Of a stretch of DNA of 64,000 nucleotides, positions 37,966 to 46,849 are shown in pieces (positions within the stretch are counted from its first letter, which is position 1; every line of letters begins with the position of its first letter). The notes under the pieces are model-generated. The model saw only the letters and a program-made list of their open reading frames with translations. It did no database searches and had not been told where the DNA came from. The position numbers and the translations under genes are program-made. Source of the DNA: Rhizobium sp. Root1203 (GTDB lineage: Bacteria; Pseudomonadota; Alphaproteobacteria; Rhizobiales; Rhizobiaceae); assembly GCF_001424945.1 (NCBI RefSeq), contig NZ_LMCW01000012.1, positions 512,373 to 576,372 on the forward strand. The letters are read 5' to 3'.

Positions 37966-38963
37966 GCGGCCTCCCGGGTTTCGTTGTCCGATGCCGAGGC
38001 AATCAGGGCATCGTGGAATCGCCGCGAAACCTCACCGGGATCCCGCGCAGTCATGATCGCAGCCTTGTCGGTCGCTGCAATTGCCGGAGCGAATCGCTCC
38101 AGATACCAGCCGAGGTGCTTGCGCGCGTGGCGTACGGCAACCTCCTCGCCATAGAACTCAAGCATCATCCGGTAGTGCTCGGTGGCAATACCGGCGATCT
38201 CCCACGCCTGCGGTGCCTGCTCGCCGGCGAGCACGCCGGCATGCCAAGGCCGCCCCTGGCACCCGCGACCGATCATCACCGCATCGGCGCCGGAGCGTCG
38301 CAGAATCTCATGCGCATCCTCGACGGTCTCGACATCGCCGTTGGCAACCAGTGGAATGGAGAGGACATCGCGGACGGCACGGATTGCGTCCCAATCGGCA
38401 CGCCCCTCGTAAAACTGCATGCGCGTTCGGCCATGAATGGTCACGAGCTCGACACCGGCATCCTCGGCGCGCTTGGCGATCTCGGGCGCATTGATGGTGT
38501 TCTCATCCCAGCCCAGCCGCATCTTCAATGTCACAGGCACGTTGACGGCCTTGACGGTGGCTTCGATGAGACCGAGGGCATGGTCGGGATCGCGCATCAG
38601 TGCTGAGCCGGAATAACCGCCGATCACCTTCTTGGCAGGGCAGCCCATGTTGATGTCGATGATATCGGCACCATGGTCTGCGGCAATTTTCGCCGCCTCC
38701 GCCATCCAATGCGCCTCGCGCCCGGCCAGCTGCACCATATGCGGCTGGAATCCCGCAGCCTCCAGTCGAGCCCAGGATTCGGAGGTATTGTTGACAAGTT
38801 CGCGGCTTGCCACCATTTCCGTCACGACCAGGCCAGCACCATGGCGCCACGCCAGTTGGCGGAAAGGCATATCGGTCACGCCGGACATCGGTGCCAGGAC
38901 GATGCGGTTGCGCACCGTGACGGATCCGATCCGCAATGGGGATGCGAGGTCTATTTCACACAA
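37962..38963 (-). CDS. dusB: tRNA-dihydrouridine synthase DusB (NifR3)
   Basis: A 333-residue FMN enzyme that reduces uridines in the tRNA D loop. The TIM-barrel motifs are [21 protein letters not shown] near residue 24, the catalytic-cysteine motif [21 protein letters not shown] near residue 100, and [14 protein letters not shown]. The start codon appears to be a TTG at 38963, with no usable ATG before residue 25, and the ribosome binding site is weak, so low expression of the head of the ntr operon is possible. Known in older literature as nifR3 because of this linkage to ntrBC. Confidence 0.95.
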
Positions 38964-39125
38964 ATGATTATCTTTCGGGCACGCCGGACAGGTGCACTAT
39001 TTTTAGACAGGTTTAAATGGCTTGCCAAGGGGGCAGTGCCCGAATTGATATTTTTCGGGCAAATGCTGGAATTCGGTGCGCCAAGCCGTTAGAGCACCAG
39101 TGCAAATTCTGCTTTTTGGGGATTT

Positions 39126-40346
39126 ATGCCGCAAATGCATCCAACGCAACCGATATCGATCGGAATTGTCATCGTGGCCGCCGGTCGCGGCGAGCGCGCG
39201 GGCGCGCCAGAAGAGGGGCCGAAGCAGTATCGCCCGATCGGCGGCAAACCCGTGATTGCCCATACGCTTGAAAAGTTCATCGCGTGGCAGGCGGCACGGC
39301 AGATCGTCGCGGTGATTCATCCCGACGACAAGGCCCTATTCGCCAAGGCGGCCGGCAGGCTTGCGTCTGCCGTCCCGATCGAGGTCGTCCACGGCGGCAC
39401 CACGCGCCAGCAATCGGTTCTGGCGGGCCTGCGCCATTTGAGGTCCAAGGCAGTAACGCATGTCCTGATCCACGACGCGGTACGGCCGTTCATCGAACAC
39501 GAACTCCTGGACCGGATTGCCGCCGCCCTGTCGGATGGCGCGGAGGCCGTTTTGCCGGCGATGGCCGTCGCCGATACCCTGAAGCGTGCGGATGCTGCCG
39601 GAACGGTGATCGAAACTGTTCCCCGTGCGCAGCTCTATGCCGCCCAGACGCCGCAATCCTTCGCCTTCGAGCCGATCCTTGCAGCACACGAGAAGGCAGC
39701 GGCCGCAGAGCGCGCCGATTTCACCGACGACGCCGCCATTGCCGAATGGGCCGGCATTCCGGTTATGATCGTCGAAGGAAACGCGGACAACGTGAAGCTG
39801 ACAGTGAGGCGCGATATCGCAATGGCGGACAACAGACTTTCAAGCGCAGTGCTGCCGGACGTACGCACCGGCAACGGCTACGACGTGCATCAGCTTGAGC
39901 CCGGCGACGGTGTGACGCTGTGCGGCGTCTTCATTCCGCACGACCAGAGGCTCAAGGGACATTCGGATGCCGACGTTGCCCTTCACGCACTGACGGACGC
40001 ATTGCTTGCCACCTGCGGCGCCGGCGATATCGGCGACCATTTCCCGCCATCGGATCCGCAATGGAAAGGCGCTCCGTCGCGCATTTTCATCGAGCATGCC
40101 GCCCGGATCGTGCGCGAACGCGGCGGCACGATCATGAACGCCGATGTGTCGCTTATCGCCGAAGCCCCGAAGGTGGGACCCCACCGCGACGAGATGCGCG
40201 CCAAGCTCTCGGAATTTCTCGGCATTTCAATCGACCGCTGCTCGGTCAAGGCCACCACCAACGAGACGATCGGCTTTGTTGGACGCCGTGAGGGCATCGC
40301 TGCGATCGCCACGGCGACTGTCGTCTATCAAGGCGCCCGGCCATGA
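39126..40346 (+). CDS. ispDF: Bifunctional IspD/IspF (MEP cytidylyltransferase and MECDP synthase)
   Basis: A 406-residue fusion enzyme for two non-consecutive steps of the MEP isoprenoid pathway. Residues ~10-235 are Isp[38 protein letters not shown] and [12 protein letters not shown]. Residues ~246-406 are Isp[20 protein letters not shown] (metal-binding DxH), [17 protein letters not shown] and [13 protein letters not shown]. The fusion is usual in alphaproteobacteria. Divergent from dusB; the cinA-like gene overlaps its end by ATGA. Confidence 0.97.
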
Positions 40347-40843
40347 GCCTGTTCCCCGCCGATATAATCGCCGAGGCGGAAGCGCTCGTGCGCGATTTCA
40401 CCGCAGCGGGCATCATGGTCTCGACGGCCGAATCCTGCACGGGCGGCCTGATTGCCGGCGCGCTGACGGAGATCGCAGGCTCCTCGGCGGTCGTGGATCG
40501 CGGCTTCGTCACCTATACGAATAGAGCCAAAATGGAGATGCTGGGCGTCCAGGAGGGCACACTCACCCGCTATGGTGCCGTCTCGGAAGAGACGGCACGG
40601 CAGATGGTGCACGGCGCCCTCTTCCGCTCGCATGCCGACATCGCGATTGCGGTGACCGGCGTGGCCGGTCCGGGCGGCGGATCGGCGGAGAAGCCGGTCG
40701 GGCTCGTTCACCTTGCGGCCAAGTCACGCACGTCAGGGCTTGTTCACCGAAAGATGCTCTACGGCGATATCGGCCGCGATCAGGTGCGGCTTGCCACGGT
40801 CAGAACGGCACTCGCCATGATCAGGCAGCTCGCTCAAGCATAG
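40343..40843 (+). CDS. cinA: CinA-family nicotinamide-nucleotide amidohydrolase (C-terminal domain only)
   Basis: A 166-residue protein corresponding to the CinA C-terminal/PncC domain, which hydrolyses nicotinamide mononucleotide. Key motifs are [22 protein letters not shown] near residues 32-53, [12 protein letters not shown], and [20 protein letters not shown]. The N-terminal MoaB-like domain of full CinA is absent, a common form in proteobacteria. It is translationally coupled to ispDF and its last 10 bp overlap the convergent ratA-like gene. Confidence 0.94.
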
Positions 40844-41277
40844 ATCTTCCCCGCGCGCGTCTCAAACGCCTCGGAAAACATCCTGAAGGCCCGGTCGAAC
40901 ATCGAGCCCATGAGCGCGCCGAGGATGCGGCTCCTGAACTCGTAGTCGATGAAGAAGTGGACGTTGGAACCCGTTGACGTGTCTTCGAATCGCCAGCGAT
41001 TGTCGAGATATTTGAACGGCCCGTCGATGTATTTGACGTCGATGACACGCTCAGCCTTGTTGAGCAGGACCTGCGTCGTGAAGGTTTCGCGGATCGCCTT
41101 GTAGCCGACGGTCATATCGGCGATCAGCAGGACCTTGCCGTCGCGCTCCTTGCGGCTGCGGATGGAAAGGGCTTCGCAAAGCGGCAGGAATTGCGGATAG
41201 CGCTCGACGTCGGCGACGAGGTCGAACATCTGATCTGCGGAGTGTGGGACGGGGCGATGCGTTTCGAACTGAGGCAT
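40834..41277 (-). CDS. RatA/COQ10-like START-domain protein
   Basis: A 147-residue polyketide-cyclase/START-like protein, related to RatA of E. coli and mitochondrial COQ10, a probable ubiquinone-binding or lipid-carrying protein. The N-terminus FETHRPVPHSADQMFDLVADVERYPQFLPLCEAL and the segment GPFKYLDNRWRFED are family hallmarks; FFIDYEFRSRILGALMG near the C-terminus forms the long helix. In rhizobia it is commonly near lipA. The toxin annotation sometimes given to RatA should not be taken as evidence of a toxin-antitoxin system here, since no partner gene is seen. Confidence 0.9.
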   Translation of the reverse strand: MPQFETHRPVPHSADQMFDLVADVERYPQFLPLCEALSIRSRKERDGKVLLIADMTVGYKAIRETFTTQVLLNKAERVIDVKYIDGPFKYLDNRWRFEDTSTGSNVHFFIDYEFRSRILGALMGSMFDRAFRMFSEAFETRAGKIYA

Positions 41278-41286
41278 GATCGGCAG

Positions 41287-41856
41287 TTAAGCGGGAGCGC
41301 GGAGAAGATCAAGAAGGTGACGCATTTCTTGATGCGATTTCAACTGAAGGACGGGAACGTCGGGCGCGAACCGGTCGATTCCATCAACGATCAGCGGCAC
41401 GAAGCGGCGTTCGAAATTCCATATGAAGCTCAGAAACTCAAGATCGAGTTTCTCCGGGCAACCCGCCGCCATCTCCGGTCGCGGTCTGCCTCGCCAGCGC
41501 AACCAACGACGGGTGACGCCAAGCACGCATCGCCAGCGCGGCAACCGGACCCACAGGACAAATTCGGTTCTCGGCAAGCGCAGATCGAATGTAGATGAAC
41601 CGGTGCCATCCATCAGCCACCGTTCGGTCACAACCGCGGCGGCGATCATGTCCCGCTCTTCGCCCTTCGGTCGCTTGACCCAGCCAGGCAACCAGTAGAA
41701 CTCACGGTCCATCGATATGTGGCGGACATCGAGCCGTTCGCCTATCTGCTTCGAGAGTGTCGTCTTCCCGCCGCCAGAGCAGCCGATGACCAAAATGCGA
41801 TTGGAACGCTTCAAAATTCCGGCGGCTTGAGCTAGATCGGTAACAAACCTCGGCAT
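41287..41856 (-). CDS. P-loop kinase-like protein (adenylate kinase/FlaR fold), copy 1
   Basis: A 189-residue P-loop NTPase with Walker A GCSGGGKTT at residues 25-33 and the downstream motifs HISMDREFYWLPGWVKRP, WLMDGTGSSTFDLRLPRTEFVLWV and LSFIWNFERR. Such proteins are often annotated as DNA topology modulation FlaR-related or adenylate-kinase-like; no substrate is established. It is about half identical by eye to the protein encoded next (41897-42469) over its whole length, so the two arose by tandem duplication. The acceptor pocket (DREFYWLPGW) is kept in both. Confidence 0.82.
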   Translation of the reverse strand: MPRFVTDLAQAAGILKRSNRILVIGCSGGGKTTLSKQIGERLDVRHISMDREFYWLPGWVKRPKGEERDMIAAAVVTERWLMDGTGSSTFDLRLPRTEFVLWVRLPRWRCVLGVTRRWLRWRGRPRPEMAAGCPEKLDLEFLSFIWNFERRFVPLIVDGIDRFAPDVPVLQLKSHQEMRHLLDLLRAPA

Positions 41857-41896
41857 GTTCCATTCCTGCAGATAGATATCGAAACGACTTGATCAC

Positions 41897-42469
41897 TCAG
41901 GCGGCCGGAACGACGCGATGAAGCAGCGCCCTCATCTCAGCCCTGCTGCTCAGCTGCACGATCGGAACGAATGGACCGTGGAGCCGGACACCCTCCATAA
42001 ATTCGGGCACATCGTCGCGCTCGAAATTCCAGACATATGAGATGAAATGCCAGTCCGGTATTCGCTCGAGGCATCCCGGCGCCATATCGGGCCGGGTTTT
42101 CCCGCGGTAGACGAAGCCGCGTCTGACTATGCTCCAGAGGCACAGCCAGCGCGGCACCCGCACCCAGAGGACGATATCGGCGCGTGGCAATCGCAGATCG
42201 AGGGACTTGGGATTGTTGCCGTCGATGATCCAGCGATCTTCGGCGACGATTCCGGCGATCAACTGTCGCTGCTCGGCCCGCGGTCTCCAAACCCAACCGG
42301 GCAACCAGAAGACTTCGCGGTCCATGGAGACGTAGCGCAGGCCGAGAGTGCGGGACAGTTTCTGCGAAAACGTGCTCTTGCCGCCACCGGAACAGCCAAA
42401 GACAACGATCCTGCGCGCATGGCGCAGTCTGTCTGCAGCATCCTCGATGCTTGAGATACCGTTGGGCAT
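41897..42469 (-). CDS. P-loop kinase-like protein (adenylate kinase/FlaR fold), copy 2
   Basis: A 190-residue paralogue of the gene at 41287-41856. Walker A is GCSGGGKST, followed by YVSMDREVFWLPGWVWRPRAE, RWIIDGNNPKSLDLRLPRADIVLWV and ISYVWNFERDD; an Arg-rich lid region IVRRGFVYRGKTRPDMAPG fits a nucleotide-kinase lid. It lies 40 bp upstream of copy 1 on the same strand and 61 bp after lipA. It is probably a small-molecule or nucleotide kinase; the actual acceptor is unknown. Confidence 0.82.
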   Translation of the reverse strand: MPNGISSIEDAADRLRHARRIVVFGCSGGGKSTFSQKLSRTLGLRYVSMDREVFWLPGWVWRPRAEQRQLIAGIVAEDRWIIDGNNPKSLDLRLPRADIVLWVRVPRWLCLWSIVRRGFVYRGKTRPDMAPGCLERIPDWHFISYVWNFERDDVPEFMEGVRLHGPFVPIVQLSSRAEMRALLHRVVPAA

Positions 42470-42530
42470 GTGCGGGCTCCCGAAATGGAGCAGCGCAATT
42501 TACACAACTTTAGATATCAGACAACCGCAT

Positions 42531-43502
42531 TTACTCGGCCGCCACAAGCAGTTTCTTCTCGCGCGCGGCCCTCAGGCGGGCAAAGTCGTCGCCGGCATGG
42601 TGCGAGGAGCGCGTCAGAGGGCTGGAGGCCACCATAAGGAAGCCCTTGGTATAGGCAACGGTCTCGTAGGACTTGAACTCGTCAGGGGTGACGAAGCTCA
42701 TGACCGCATGGTGCTTGCGGGTGGGCTGCAGGTATTGGCCGATCGTCAGGAAGTCCACATCCGCCGTGCGCAGGTCGTCCATCAGCTGCAGCACTTCGTT
42801 GCGCTCTTCTCCGAGGCCCACCATGATGCCTGATTTGGTGAACATCGTCGGGTCCAGTTCCTTCACCCGCTGCAGCAGGCGGATGGAGTGGAAGTAGCGG
42901 GCGCCGGGGCGAACGGTCAGGTAGTTGCCGGGCACGGTTTCCATGTTGTGGTTGAACACGTCGGGCTTGGCGGCGACGACACGCTCCAGCGCTCCGGGCT
43001 TCTTCAGGAAGTCGGGCGTCAGGATCTCGATCGTCGTTGCCGGCGACGCGGCGCGGATCGCCCAGATCACCTTCTCGAAGTGCTCGGCGCCGCCGTCTGC
43101 CAGATCGTCGCGGTCGACGGATGTGATGACGACGTGGCTGAGGCCCATCTGCTTGACCGCCTTGGCCACATTTTCGGGCTCGGCCATGTCGAGCGCGTTC
43201 GGCTTGCCTGTCGCGACGTTGCAGAAGGCGCAGGCCCGCGTACAGATCTCGCCCATGATCATGAAGGTCGCGTGCTTCTTGTCCCAGCACTCGCCGATAT
43301 TGGGGCAGCCGGCTTCTTCGCAAACGGTGACGAGCTTATGCTCCTTCACAATCGAACGCGTTTCGGCATAACCCTTGGAGGTCGGCGCCTTGACGCGGAT
43401 CCAGTCCGGCTTGCGCATGACTTCCGTGTCCGGGCGATGCGCCTTTTCCGGATGCCGCACGCGTTTTGCGTCGGGATTGATCGTGTCGAGAATGGTTACC
43501 AT
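42531..43502 (-). CDS. lipA: Lipoyl synthase LipA
   Basis: A 323-residue radical-SAM enzyme that inserts two sulfurs into octanoyl groups on lipoyl domains, such as those of the PDH proteins encoded at 46.9-49.6 kb. The radical-SAM cluster is [10 protein letters not shown]; the auxiliary, sacrificial cluster is [13 protein letters not shown]; the C-terminal RSSHHAG serine ligand is present. Residues 1-45 (with [20 protein letters not shown]) match the usual N-terminus. The nearby lpdA and pdh genes use its product. Confidence 0.97.
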
Positions 43503-43539
43503 AGCAGTTCAACTCTCCGCCGCCCCATGCGGCTAGACC

Positions 43540-43788
43540 CTATCGGCGTGCAAGCCGCGCGACGAATATCAGCAGGCAGGCACCAAGGAAACCCGTTATG
43601 AAGTAACCGAGCCTGCCACCGGCCACTTCAAGATGAAACTGCGCCAGGATCGCAGTCGCCACAACCGAGCCGACGATACCGAGCACGATGTTCAGCAATA
43701 TGCCGTAACGGGCTTCCATCAGCTTGCCGGCAAGCCAGCCCGCAAAACCGCCGATGATGATTGCTGCAATCCAGCCTACGCCTTCCAT
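43540..43788 (-). CDS. GlsB/YeaQ/YmgE-family small membrane protein, copy 1
   Basis: An 82-residue protein with three membrane helices and the Gly-rich family pattern GWIAAIIIGGFAGWLAGKLMEARYG and ILNIVLGIVGSVVATAIL. The family is called transglycosylase-associated, and several members are stress-induced, but the function is undefined. It lies 37 bp before lipA and 15 bp after the second family member, so both may be carried by one transcript running into lipA. Confidence 0.87.
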   Translation of the reverse strand: MEGVGWIAAIIIGGFAGWLAGKLMEARYGILLNIVLGIVGSVVATAILAQFHLEVAGGRLGYFITGFLGACLLIFVARLARR

Positions 43789-43803
43789 CCTGTCCTTCGC
43801 CCC

Positions 43804-44058
43804 TTACGCTATCGCTCTTGCGATCAGCACCACGATGATGGCACCGATGGTCGCGTGAATGATCTGCACCACGATCGCATTCTCAATCCCCAGCGAAATC
43901 CCGAGCGCGTTGAAGAGAAACCCTCCGACGAACGCGCCGATGATGCCGCTGAGCAGGCATCGTATCAATCCGCCTCCTCCGACGATCAGGCTGGCGAGAA
44001 AGCCCGCGACCAGACCGATCAGGAGAAAGATGAGCAATGCCTGCGTACCCATAGACAT
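43804..44058 (-). CDS. GlsB/YeaQ/YmgE-family small membrane protein, copy 2
   Basis: An 84-residue protein with three hydrophobic helices (QALLIFLLIGLVAGFLASLI, LSGIIGAFVGGFLFNALG, IHATIGAIIVVLIARAIA). AAAGGAAATCATC precedes the ATG at 44058, which decides the start over an upstream ATG in low-quality sequence. It shares the family with the next gene but is clearly diverged from it in sequence, so this is an old duplication. Upstream of it lies an 11-bp hairpin that may end lpdA transcripts. Confidence 0.85.
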   Translation of the reverse strand: MSMGTQALLIFLLIGLVAGFLASLIVGGGGLIRCLLSGIIGAFVGGFLFNALGISLGIENAIVVQIIHATIGAIIVVLIARAIA

Positions 44059-44099
44059 GATGATTTCCTTTCGTTTTTTCCACCCCTGTCGGGACGGCT

Positions 44100-44151
44100 T
44101 GCGCCGCCCTCGGGGGACGGCTTGTGCCGCCTCGGGATAAAGGGCGGCGCA
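44100..44151 (-). terminator. GC-rich hairpin after lpdA, possible terminator
   Basis: TGCGCCGCCCT at 44100-44110 and AGGGCGGCGCA at 44141-44151 form an 11-bp perfect stem 8 bp beyond the lpdA stop. The 30-nt interior repeats the outside sequence (GGGACGGCTTG then GCCGCC occurs twice, at 44091 and 44115), so alternative hairpins can form. No T run follows, so strength as a terminator is uncertain. Confidence 0.5.
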
Positions 44152-44159
44152 GGAAATTA

Positions 44160-45608
44160 TCAAGCGTTCAAAACCCGGCCGTAAGCGTCGAGAACGGCTT
44201 CCTTCATGCTTTCGGATACCGTCGGGTGCGGGAAGATGGTGTGCATCAGCTCTTCTTCCGTCGTCTCTAGGTTCATTGCCACGACGAAGCCCTGAATGAG
44301 CTCGGTCACTTCAGCGCCGACCATGTGCGCGCCGAGCAGTTCACCGGTCTTCTTGTCGAAGATGACCTTGACCATGCCCTGGTCTTCGCCGAGTGCGATC
44401 GCCTTGCCGTTTGCAGCGAAGGAGAACCGGCCGACACGTATGTCGCGGCCCTGTTCCTTGGCCCTGGCTTCGGTCAGGCCGACGGACGCGACCTGAGGGT
44501 TGCAGTAGGTGCAGCCTGGCACCTTGCTCTTGTCGGTGGGATGCACGTTCGGCAGACCGGCGATCTTTTCGATGCAGACGACGCCCTCGTGCTCGGCCTT
44601 GTGGGCAAGCATCGGCGGGCCGGCGACGTCGCCGATGGCGTAGATGCCCGGCACGTTGGTCTTGCCGTAGCCGTCGATGACCACGCAGCCGCGGTCCGTT
44701 TTGACGCCGAGTGCCTCGAGACCGAGGTTTTCAATGTTGCCCTGCACGCCCACGGCCGAAATCATCCGGTCAGCCGTGATCTGCTGAACCTTGCCGTCGG
44801 CCGTTTCGACATGGGCGGTCACGCTGTTGGCAGCCTTCTCCACCTTGGTAACCTTGGCGCTCGTGAAGATCTTGAGGCCGCGCTTTTCCAGTTGCTTGCG
44901 GGCAATCGCAGTGACTTCGGCGTCTTCGACCGGCATGATGGTCGGCATGACTTCGACGACGGTGACGTCAACGCCCATCGAACGATAGAAGCTTGCAAAC
45001 TCGATGCCGATCGCGCCAGAGCCCATGACGATCAGCGACTTCGGCAGGACATCGGGCTTCAGCGCTTCGAAATAGGTCCAGATCAGCTTGCCATCCGGCT
45101 CGATGCCGGGCAGAGCGCGCGGACGGGCGCCAGTGGCGATGATGATGTGCTTGGCGGTGTATGTGCCCTCCGCGCTCTTGATGTTCTTCGGCAGCGGATG
45201 CTGCGGCTCGACGGCCGGCTTGCTGGACTTGGTGACGACGATTTCACCGGGCTTGGTAATCTTGGCTTCGCCCCAGATCACATCCACCTTGTTCTTCTTC
45301 ATCAGGAAGCCCACGCCGGTATTGAGGCGGGCGGAGACGCCGCGCGAGCGGGCCACGACCGCCTTCACATCGGCGCTGACCTTGCCCTCGAGAACGAGGC
45401 CGTAGTCCTTCAGGTGGTTGGAATGGTCGAGAATCTCGGCAGAGCGCAGCAGCGCCTTGGTCGGAATGCAGCCCCAGTTCAGGCAGATGCCGCCCAAATG
45501 CTCACGCTCGATGATTGCGGTCTTGAGGCCCAGCTGACCGGCGCGCACAGCGGCGACATAGCCGCCCGGACCGGAGCCGATGATGATGACGTCGTAATTC
45601 TCAGCCAT
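44160..45608 (-). CDS. lpdA: Dihydrolipoamide dehydrogenase (E3)
   Basis: A 482-residue FAD enzyme that reoxidises dihydrolipoyl groups and makes NADH for the pyruvate dehydrogenase complex. FAD motif IIGSGPGGYVAAVRAGQLG is at residues 8-26; the redox disulfide is GGICLNWGCIPTK; the NAD motif is VMGSGAIGIEFASFYRSMG; the catalytic His-Glu pair lies in HTIFPHPTVSESMKEAVL. A short insertion with PAVEPQHPLPKNIKS near residue 130 is known from rhizobial PDH-type LpdA. It lies downstream of pdhABC, an SGNH gene and a GNAT gene on the same strand. Confidence 0.97.
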   Translation of the reverse strand: MAENYDVIIIGSGPGGYVAAVRAGQLGLKTAIIEREHLGGICLNWGCIPTKALLRSAEILDHSNHLKDYGLVLEGKVSADVKAVVARSRGVSARLNTGVGFLMKKNKVDVIWGEAKITKPGEIVVTKSSKPAVEPQHPLPKNIKSAEGTYTAKHIIIATGARPRALPGIEPDGKLIWTYFEALKPDVLPKSLIVMGSGAIGIEFASFYRSMGVDVTVVEVMPTIMPVEDAEVTAIARKQLEKRGLKIFTSAKVTKVEKAANSVTAHVETADGKVQQITADRMISAVGVQGNIENLGLEALGVKTDRGCVVIDGYGKTNVPGIYAIGDVAGPPMLAHKAEHEGVVCIEKIAGLPNVHPTDKSKVPGCTYCNPQVASVGLTEARAKEQGRDIRVGRFSFAANGKAIALGEDQGMVKVIFDKKTGELLGAHMVGAEVTELIQGFVVAMNLETTEEELMHTIFPHPTVSESMKEAVLDAYGRVLNA

Positions 45609-45623
45609 ATTTTCCTGCCTTTG

Positions 45624-46205
45624 TTATCGGGCGTCGCGGGTGAAAAGCACCCACTCGTGTTTCCTGCTGCTTTCGAAAAAAGACACCGCATCGATGCGCG
45701 CCGTCTCCGAAAATCCGTTCTTCCCATAAAGCGTCAGTGCCGCTTCGTTATAGCCTGCGGTGATCAGGCTGACCGGCAGTTTTCCCGCCCGCTCGATCTG
45801 GTCTTCCAATATCCGGCTGGCGATCCCGATGCCTCGTAGGTGGCTGTAGACAGCGAGCGTTTCGATAAACCAGCTTCCAATCACCATCTTCTGCAGATCG
45901 ATTACCGGCTTGAGAGCCGGGTGATCCGGTTGGATGTCACGTATGCCTTCACCCAGCCCGTAGCCGATCGCGGCTCCGGCAATCTCGCCGTAAGCCTCGG
46001 CAATGACGGCGTCACCCCAGGCACCACGGCCTTCGTCCCGGCGCATCTTCCGTCGGCCCAGTTCCAGCGGCGTGTCGCCGCCGCCGTTTCCAAGGTCGGT
46101 CAGCCAGAGCCACGAGGCAAAGCCGTGCGAGGCAATATCCACGAGAACCGCCAGTTCGGCCGCATCCTCCCGCACCGCGGGACGCAGCGACACGAAAGAC
46201 CCCAT
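45624..46205 (-). CDS. GNAT-family N-acetyltransferase
   Basis: A 193-residue acetyltransferase fold. The acetyl-CoA region is seen as IETLAVYSHLRGIGIASRILEDQIERAG with the R-G-x-G-x-A core; the C-terminal GYNEAALTLYGKNGFSETARID completes the fold. It lies between the SGNH gene and lpdA, 15 bp before the latter, inside the pdh gene string. The ATG at 46205 falls just after the SGNH stop codon; a TTG at 46211 is an alternative. Substrate unknown. Confidence 0.88.
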   Translation of the reverse strand: MGSFVSLRPAVREDAAELAVLVDIASHGFASWLWLTDLGNGGGDTPLELGRRKMRRDEGRGAWGDAVIAEAYGEIAGAAIGYGLGEGIRDIQPDHPALKPVIDLQKMVIGSWFIETLAVYSHLRGIGIASRILEDQIERAGKLPVSLITAGYNEAALTLYGKNGFSETARIDAVSFFESSRKHEWVLFTRDAR

Positions 46206-46207
46206 GG

Positions 46208-46849
46208 TCAAAGCCCCAGCATCATCCGCACGGTCGACTCAAGACCGCGCCCGAGAGCGCGGGTATTCTCCGCATCAAGATGTATGCCGTCGAGCGGCGT
46301 CGTCTTGGCAACGGAATTGCCGTCGAAGAAGCCACAACCAAGCTCGTCGGCGAGATCGCGATAAAGGGTCGCAAGCTTGGCCGACTCCTCGATGCCTCCG
46401 ACGAAGGACGCCGCGAACGGCACGTTTGCCGTCTCGCAGACCTTCGGCGGCGCGACGATCAGGATATCCGGCGCGTCGAATTCGAAAGGCCAGGCATGAT
46501 TGCGGATCAGCCTGACCAACCGGGCAATGCCCTGGCAGGCGGCAAACGCCGATCCCGCCACGACCGGCTTCATGTCGTTTGTGCCGAGCAGGAGGATGAC
46601 GAGATCGAGCGGCGCATGCGTCTGCAGGATCGTCGGCAGGACGCGTGCACCGTTGCGATCGCAATCGGCGAGATGATCGTCGAATGCAGTCGTGCGACCG
46701 TTCAGGCCCTCGGCAATGATCCTGACCTCGTTGCCGAGGGCTGCCTGCAGCGTGCTCGGCCATCGGTCCTTGTAGTCGTGACGACCGATGGAAACGGCGT
46801 CGTAACCCCAGGTCAGCGAGTCGCCGTAGCAAAGAACGGTCTTCGTCAT
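46208..46849 (-). CDS. SGNH/GDSL-family hydrolase (arylesterase-like)
   Basis: A 213-residue esterase of the SGNH fold without signal peptide. Block I is VLCYGDSLTWGYD (catalytic serine in GDSLTWG), the block III GTND is in LLLGTNDMKP, and the C-terminal DGIHLDAENTRALG provides the Asp-His pair. Related enzymes are arylesterases or acyl-hydrolases/perhydrolases. The ATG at 46849 (MTKTVLCYGDS) gives a standard N-terminus. It sits 19 bp after pdhC and is followed by GNAT and lpdA genes. Confidence 0.92.
   Translation of the reverse strand: MTKTVLCYGDSLTWGYDAVSIGRHDYKDRWPSTLQAALGNEVRIIAEGLNGRTTAFDDHLADCDRNGARVLPTILQTHAPLDLVILLLGTNDMKPVVAGSAFAACQGIARLVRLIRNHAWPFEFDAPDILIVAPPKVCETANVPFAASFVGGIEESAKLATLYRDLADELGCGFFDGNSVAKTTPLDGIHLDAENTRALGRGLESTVRMMLGL

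Follow-up and report, generated by a model that had tools for sequence, protein, structure and literature searches.

FlaR-type kinase-like paralogues of a probable birth-and-death array between lipA and ratA in Rhizobium

Two adjacent genes of Rhizobium sp. Root1203 encode kinase-like paralogues and lie between lipA and a ratA-like gene, within a 64,000-nucleotide stretch of DNA (the window, by which we mean the whole stretch that was analysed). What are these proteins, and why are there two of them? The explanation is mostly an ordinary one: they are FlaR-type kinase-like paralogues whose array is labile and whose site has long been in use, and no new kind of system needs to be invoked. We consider it probable that the two are small P-loop phosphotransferases of the FlaR type, perhaps acting on a nucleoside or nucleotide, and that they belong to a birth-and-death array.

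The gene pair and its neighbourhood

The ratA-proximal gene (copy 1; 41287..41856, minus strand) encodes a protein of 189 amino acids and the lipA-proximal gene (copy 2; 41897..42469, minus strand) one of 190. BLASTP finds 89 identical residues out of 183 between them (49%, E 2e-67), which is far beyond chance and confirms the preliminary description of this DNA, made from its letters alone, in which two P-loop paralogues of about 190 residues were placed between a ratA-like gene and lipA. The three motifs it had read are also present in both proteins, all encoded on the minus strand. The Walker A motif occupies residues 25-33 and reads GCSGGGKTT in copy 1 (41758..41784) and GCSGGGKST in copy 2 (42371..42397). 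The second motif, at residues 48-59, is SMDREFYWLPGW in copy 1 (41680..41715), where it forms the proposed acceptor side with the conserved D50, W55 and W59, and SMDREVFWLPGW in copy 2 (42293..42328), as placed by the family alignment. The third is IWNFER at residues 145-150 of copy 1 (41407..41424) and VWNFER at residues 146-151 of copy 2 (42017..42034).

The upstream neighbour is lipA (42531..43502, minus strand; Pfam Radical_SAM and LIAS_N). The ratA-like gene (40834..41277, minus strand; Pfam Polyketide_cyc) is downstream of copy 1, followed by two conserved flanking genes, cinA (40343..40843, plus strand; Pfam CinA) and ispDF (39126..40346, plus strand; Pfam IspD and YgbB). From lipA through copy 2 and copy 1 to ratA, all on the minus strand, the spacers measure 61, 40 and 9 nt. 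No terminator-like site is found between 40300 and 43800 (2.2 are expected in shuffled sequence), and the one promoter-like site there (0.9 expected in shuffles) falls within the end of ratA. Given these short spacers on one strand and the lack of a terminator-like site, lipA, both kinase genes and ratA are probably carried on one transcript. A search for structured RNAs at Rfam gathering scores in 38000-46500 returns none. On the other side of lipA are two tandem genes (43540-43788 and 43804-44163) whose products, both small Transglycosylase-associated proteins (PF04226), likewise belong to one family.

Assignment to the FlaR-type family

Neither kinase reaches the gathering score of any Pfam model. 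The profile search that the preliminary description proposed places both in the FlaR-type family: the NCBIfam model NF005994, 'DNA topology modulation protein' (FlaR), covers residues 19-184 of copy 1 (145.3 bits, E 1.7e-42) and 19-186 of copy 2 (147.8 bits, E 3.1e-43), compared with E 2.8e-09 for the best family of a different name. Both scores miss the equivalog cut-off of this model (215 bits), and so do those of four of the six FlaR-type proteins scanned for comparison (133.5-209.8 bits); the other two, from Rossellomorea (291.2 bits) and a Leuconostoc phage (252.1 bits), exceed it. The comparison of residues took in 125 proteins encoded at the site, plus seven outside FlaR-type proteins whose sources are Bacillota, Klebsiella, Legionella, Agrobacterium and a phage. 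D50, W59, W80, G84, R93, R117, C133 and E135, all of them outside the P-loop, are retained in all seven outside proteins, D83 and R126 in six of the seven, and position 55 is W in five and F in two. Full-length homology and these common invariant residues put both kinases, as far as sequence comparison can place them, in the FlaR-type family taken in the broad sense.

This assignment changes how the second motif is to be read. The stretch D-R-E-x-x-W-L-P-G-W is the version that rhizobia have of a motif common to the whole family, and in it the aspartate is followed by an additional residue. Forms of the D..W.PGW motif are found across the FlaR-type family and not in this pair alone; the earlier view that the pocket differs from that of adenylate kinase stands, but it cannot be called unusual.

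Predicted fold and proposed mechanism

The structure prediction that had been suggested was made for copy 2. Its AlphaFold model, made with 20 sequences (pLDDT 93.7, pTM 0.90), is that of a predicted P-loop kinase with an adenylate-kinase-like fold and an intact Walker A motif. The nearest solved folds are, by Foldseek, AK6/hCINAP, shikimate kinase and adenylate kinase (E about 4e-6, TM 0.5-0.6) and, by VIA-align, polynucleotide kinase and others (Z about 13). Among the 50 matches listed from a library of viral folds, most are to nucleotide kinases and to P-loop proteins of the AAA or zeta-toxin-like kind. A search of the PDB by single sequence, for which 60 of 295 matches were listed, aligns the P-loop end over about 70 residues at most.

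In the model of copy 2, D50 follows strand 45-48, D83 ends strand 80-83, R117 sits towards the end of helix 107-120, and R126, C133 and E135 belong to a lid-like stretch (121-139). These positions suggest a phosphotransferase in which D50, W55 and W59 are on the acceptor side. How would such an enzyme work? ATP would bind at the P-loop. D50, where strand 2 ends, would face the acceptor together with W55 and W59, and a hydroxyl or phosphate of the acceptor would take the gamma phosphate. Four arginines of the lid base and lid (R93, R96, R117 and R126) would hold the phosphate in transfer. The acceptor would most likely be a nucleoside, a nucleotide or a similar small metabolite, a suggestion that we make tentatively.

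Is the name of the family a better guide to its function? FlaR proteins could act on DNA topology or gene regulation, the P-loop serving ATP-dependent binding and not the phosphorylation of a metabolite. The top curated family for both kinases does carry the name 'DNA topology modulation protein'. A 1995 Listeria study, summarised in PMC2532693, is cited for it. There, Listeria flaR is called histone-like and an earlier transposon mutant ties it to the expression of flagellin; what has been published as a phenotype for the family, in Listeria, thus concerns DNA topology and the expression of flagellin. The same paper reports that Listeria isolates with natural stop codons in flaR swarm less on average, which favours a role of this kind, but also that a clean flaR deletion in a second strain does not reduce motility significantly, and it tabulates flaR under COG category F (PMC2532693). 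Signs of positive selection and recombination in Listeria flaR are described in it as well (PMC2532693), and PMC8448333 counts a DNA topology modulation protein among the genes positively affected by CovR. Our search of the open-access literature in PubMed Central found neither a substrate for the FlaR-type family nor an account of the lipA–ratA kinase locus. Against a direct action on DNA stand the predicted fold, which is that of a small-molecule kinase with no added domain in 190 residues, the conserved residues, which occupy kinase positions, the lack of a significant motility defect in the clean deletion, and the placing of flaR in COG category F, that of nucleotide metabolism. Fold and residues together do not suggest what the family name says, and we regard an action on DNA topology as quite unlikely for this pair.

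Occupancy of the lipA–ratA site

The preliminary description supposed that ratA and lipA are adjacent or nearly so in rhizobia and took the pair for a local insertion. The site was surveyed in 60 Rhizobium genomes including that of the window, 58 of which are assessable (contigs break at the site in G041 and G056), and an open reading frame of at least 165 amino acids was counted as an intact copy. A kinase gene is found between lipA and ratA in 57 of the 58, with at least one intact copy in 54, and the last intact copy ends 9-10 nt before ratA in 52 of these 54 loci. Broken copies occur at the site in 5/58 genomes, three of which (G001, G017 and G040) have broken copies only. The numbers of genomes with zero, one, two and three intact copies are 4, 34, 16 and 4. 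G023 is the sole assessable genome of the genus with no kinase at the site; 3.8 kb of other open reading frames separate its lipA and ratA (L042:970-4740), one of which we take, from its resemblance, to be an IS transposase. Among named rhizobial loci, lipA and ratA flank a kinase gene in 12 of 12, the nearest named relatives being those of Rhizobium tibeticum (82%) and Rhizobium sp. Root1220 (79%).

How far does this arrangement reach beyond the genus? Across the family, 65 of 247 genomes match copy 1 at 1e-12, and 61 of the 65 are outside Rhizobium. The positions of lipA and ratA were checked in these 61 and in 16 of the 182 non-matching genomes, that is, in 77 other Rhizobiaceae. The kinase gene lies between lipA and ratA in 33 of them (18 genera); in two more it adjoins ratA, with lipA on another contig. 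No kinase-family gene intervenes in 38, where lipA and ratA are at most 150 bp apart, and four have a gap of more than 150 bp without a kinase. All matches of at least 44% in the 77 genomes sit at the site or adjoin ratA, and 26 of the 61 kinase-positive genomes have only relatives of 24-41%, located elsewhere. Sampling at higher ranks, 20 of 199 genomes of the order match the kinase alignment at 1e-20 and 24 of 190 genomes of the class match it. A kinase within 300 bp of lipA is seen in 4/15 order genomes and 0/5 class genomes, the contigs of one of the genomes (G326) being too short to tell. The order lipA, kinase, ratA, cinA, ispDF recurs in three genomes of another family, and one genome of a further family has a kinase fragment and another open reading frame between lipA and ratA.

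A local insertion does not survive these counts, within the genus or outside it, and the near-adjacency of ratA and lipA holds for the 38 of 77 other Rhizobiaceae just mentioned. The preliminary description had named a pair common at this site as the finding that would overturn it; it is the gene that is common within the genus, and not the two-copy state, since two or more intact copies are present in 20/58 genomes. Does the spread of the gene then reflect one ancient event? In a 66-row tree the site genes of the order and those of Rhizobiaceae do not form a joint clade, so this tree does not demonstrate a single old arrival at the site.

Three of the four wider gaps without a kinase have recognisable contents, which can be toxin–antitoxin genes of type II. 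That of G089 (L143:996-1579) encodes a HigB-like protein and an HTH protein, the HTH match being below the gathering score, that of G103 (L144:976-1661) a PIN-domain protein and a MazE-type antitoxin, and that of G078 (L142:574-882) an antitoxin-like product without a Pfam match.

Copy turnover and selection

The pair of the window could have arisen by tandem duplication within this Rhizobium lineage and been retained for dosage. The copies are adjacent, on the same strand and 49% identical, as such an event would leave them. The phylogeny that had been proposed as a check does not demonstrate such an event: in a 127-row tree each copy of the window belongs to its own fully supported clade, both clades contain the same seven species, and they are not sisters. 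An AU test on 73 rows does not reject a tree in which the two seven-species clades are joined into one (p 0.371), whereas the free tree separates them, and the free trees group copy 2 with other lineages with weak to moderate support. Between the two copies dN is 0.48 and dS 1.78, which is near saturation, so their split is not recent. Of the duplication claimed earlier, the paralogy stands, and an origin in this lineage is disfavoured by the free trees and tolerated by the AU test; we judge the duplication-for-dosage account unlikely.

That both copies have been retained, as was claimed, is borne out by their dN/dS of 0.05-0.20, obtained for each copy from 7 of 21 species pairs; in wider pairs the synonymous positions approach saturation. 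These values are higher than those of lipA (0.01-0.05) and close to those of cinA (0.03-0.13). Both copies are under purifying selection. Positive selection was considered as the sign of an arms race and rejected, none being seen in the seven species pairs.

The array itself appears to be labile. Where there are three copies their order is constant, A-B-C, and subsets of this array are seen in related species: A and B in G036 and G044, A and C in G003, B and C in G021, C alone in G013, G018 and G050, and B alone in G004, G006, G024, G031 and G051 (the B copies of G002 and G048 are outside the main B clade). These subsets point to differential loss. On a tree of neighbouring genes from 68 loci, parsimony counts 18 changes between single and multiple copies; this is a quick tree with open forks, in which loci without a called copy are scored as single, including that of R. 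smilacinae, which has a copy. Its well-supported branches alone give 10 changes with the two-copy label and 13 with the one-copy label. When all four copy-number groups are scored, 22 changes are needed compared with a mean of 25.2 in shuffles, a value as low being reached in 11 of 200 shuffles, and copy number is thus little more clustered on the flank tree than shuffled labels are. The flanks of R. tibeticum are 91.1% identical to those of G029, yet the ratA-proximal kinases share only 58%, compared with 84.7% for the flanks and 82% for the ratA-proximal kinase when R. tibeticum is set against the window. This mismatch would reflect either import or differential loss. All of this is consistent with a pair that is one state of a birth-and-death array, in which deep paralogous lineages would be kept or lost by species and some copies become broken.

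Exchange or differential loss of alleles at a fixed position also invites a reading in terms of defence, in which the lipA–ratA gap would accommodate genes for defence or addiction, and the kinases would be part of a system, directed against phages or toxin-like, whose diversity comes from allele exchange. The exchange or differential loss seen between R. tibeticum and G029 would fit, as would the two toxin–antitoxin pairs and the antitoxin-like frame in the four wider gaps without a kinase. Against it, 38 of the 42 kinase-less genomes hold nothing in the gap, and dN/dS is low in both copies. Membership of a known defence family was tried and rejected: matches to the anti-phage defence models of PADLOC 2.0.0 are confined to the P-loop region, with E of 0.0023 and 0.012 at best, and the best PHROGs match is to an ATPase family over residues 21-79 (E 4e-4). 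We hold a defence role to be improbable. A broader proposal, which we find unlikely, is a persistent lipA–ratA slot in Rhizobiaceae and some relatives where kinases are kept, multiplied to two or three deeply diverged copies, exchanged between species and repeatedly lost. Each copy would then have its own acceptor, and selection would shift with the metabolites of competitors, with nucleoside analogues or with phages. If it were true, a few other genera would be filling the same slot with toxin–antitoxin genes.

Relatives away from the site

The genome of the window has two further relatives, on contigs C36 (55%) and C32 (partial, 53%). In both, the kinase gene overlaps a gene for a NUDIX-GNAT fusion, which on C36 is followed by exonuclease-like and hydrolase-like genes (Pfam), with similar open reading frames on C32. 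The two loci are diverged copies of one accessory cassette (L145:8764-12236 and L146:7922-10506); C36 has an upstream NUDIX match as well. The C32 kinase is without its N-terminal part and lies beside another open reading frame, presumably a transposase.

Matches of at least 50% are found in nine plasmid records. In Shinella sp. PSBB067 the match is the gene at the lipA site, and the survey of neighbours covers the records other than the second one of strain AB2/73. NUDIX genes, whole or partial, flank the kinase on both sides in R. sullae, Rhizobium sp. 007 and Agrobacterium sp. 33MFTa1.1. A histidine phosphatase is upstream of the kinase in the first two, and R. sullae also has a HAD-type stretch; its kinase is matched as two separate pieces and could be a broken one. 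Together with C36 and C32 these three plasmid loci represent one cassette lineage, their downstream NUDIX parts being 80-90% identical, and the five count as one observation. Other neighbours are a HAD hydrolase (Shinella oryzae), a nucleotidyltransferase (Rhizobium sp. 11515TR and AB2/73) and a GNAT protein (Ensifer canadensis). A tblastn search with seven partner proteins finds no match in 112 site loci. An IMG/VR viral contig (L147:2833-3555) encodes a relative of 49%, opposite in strand to the flanking frames, which we take to be portal and terminase genes, as if it were prophage cargo.

Where did the off-site genes come from? Seven of them form one clade (100/98) nested within the site genes, which suggests a single departure from the lipA–ratA locus; one kinase lineage would have moved from there to plasmids. 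The neighbours of the off-site genes are the only functional lead to a metabolic role, and a weak one. Natural sets with anything from no copy to three at a single chromosomal site are available in Rhizobium, and these sets, along with the plasmid relatives in a NUDIX/phosphatase cassette, make substrate and phenotype testable in laboratory strains that are not pathogenic.

Comparison with known systems

The predicted structure resembles several well-known kinases that are distant in sequence. AK6/hCINAP/Fap7 (1rkb, 3iim, 4cvn) provides the first Foldseek row (1rkb, E 3.9e-06, TM 0.59) and a VIA-align Z of 13.2 (3iim), but identity is 12-17% and the sequence match is weak and restricted to the P-loop end (4cvn, E 0.016). 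The polynucleotide kinase of Clostridium thermocellum (4jt2, 4gp7) shares the fold with Z of 13.2 and 13.0 over 155 and 150 residues, at 15-17% identity. Shikimate kinase is alike in fold (4y0a, E 4.4e-06) and gives weak Walker A sequence matches, which stop by residue 53 and are all below cut-off. Adenylate kinase (PF00406, TIGR01351) is also alike in fold (8pvw, Z 12.8; 2cdn, E 4.4e-06). A standard adenylate kinase was rejected as an identity for the pair: TIGR01351 scores 15.3 and 12.9 bits compared with a curated 168, and the genome has a separate adk, a PF00406 adenylate kinase on contig C3. The FlaR family (NF005994 PRK08118.1 and NF005576 PRK07261.1) is alike over the full length and in eight common invariant residues. 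The rhizobial kinases differ from it by an N-terminal extension of about 18 residues, by DRE-x2-W where FlaR has D-x-L-F-W, and by R104 where FlaR has D or N.
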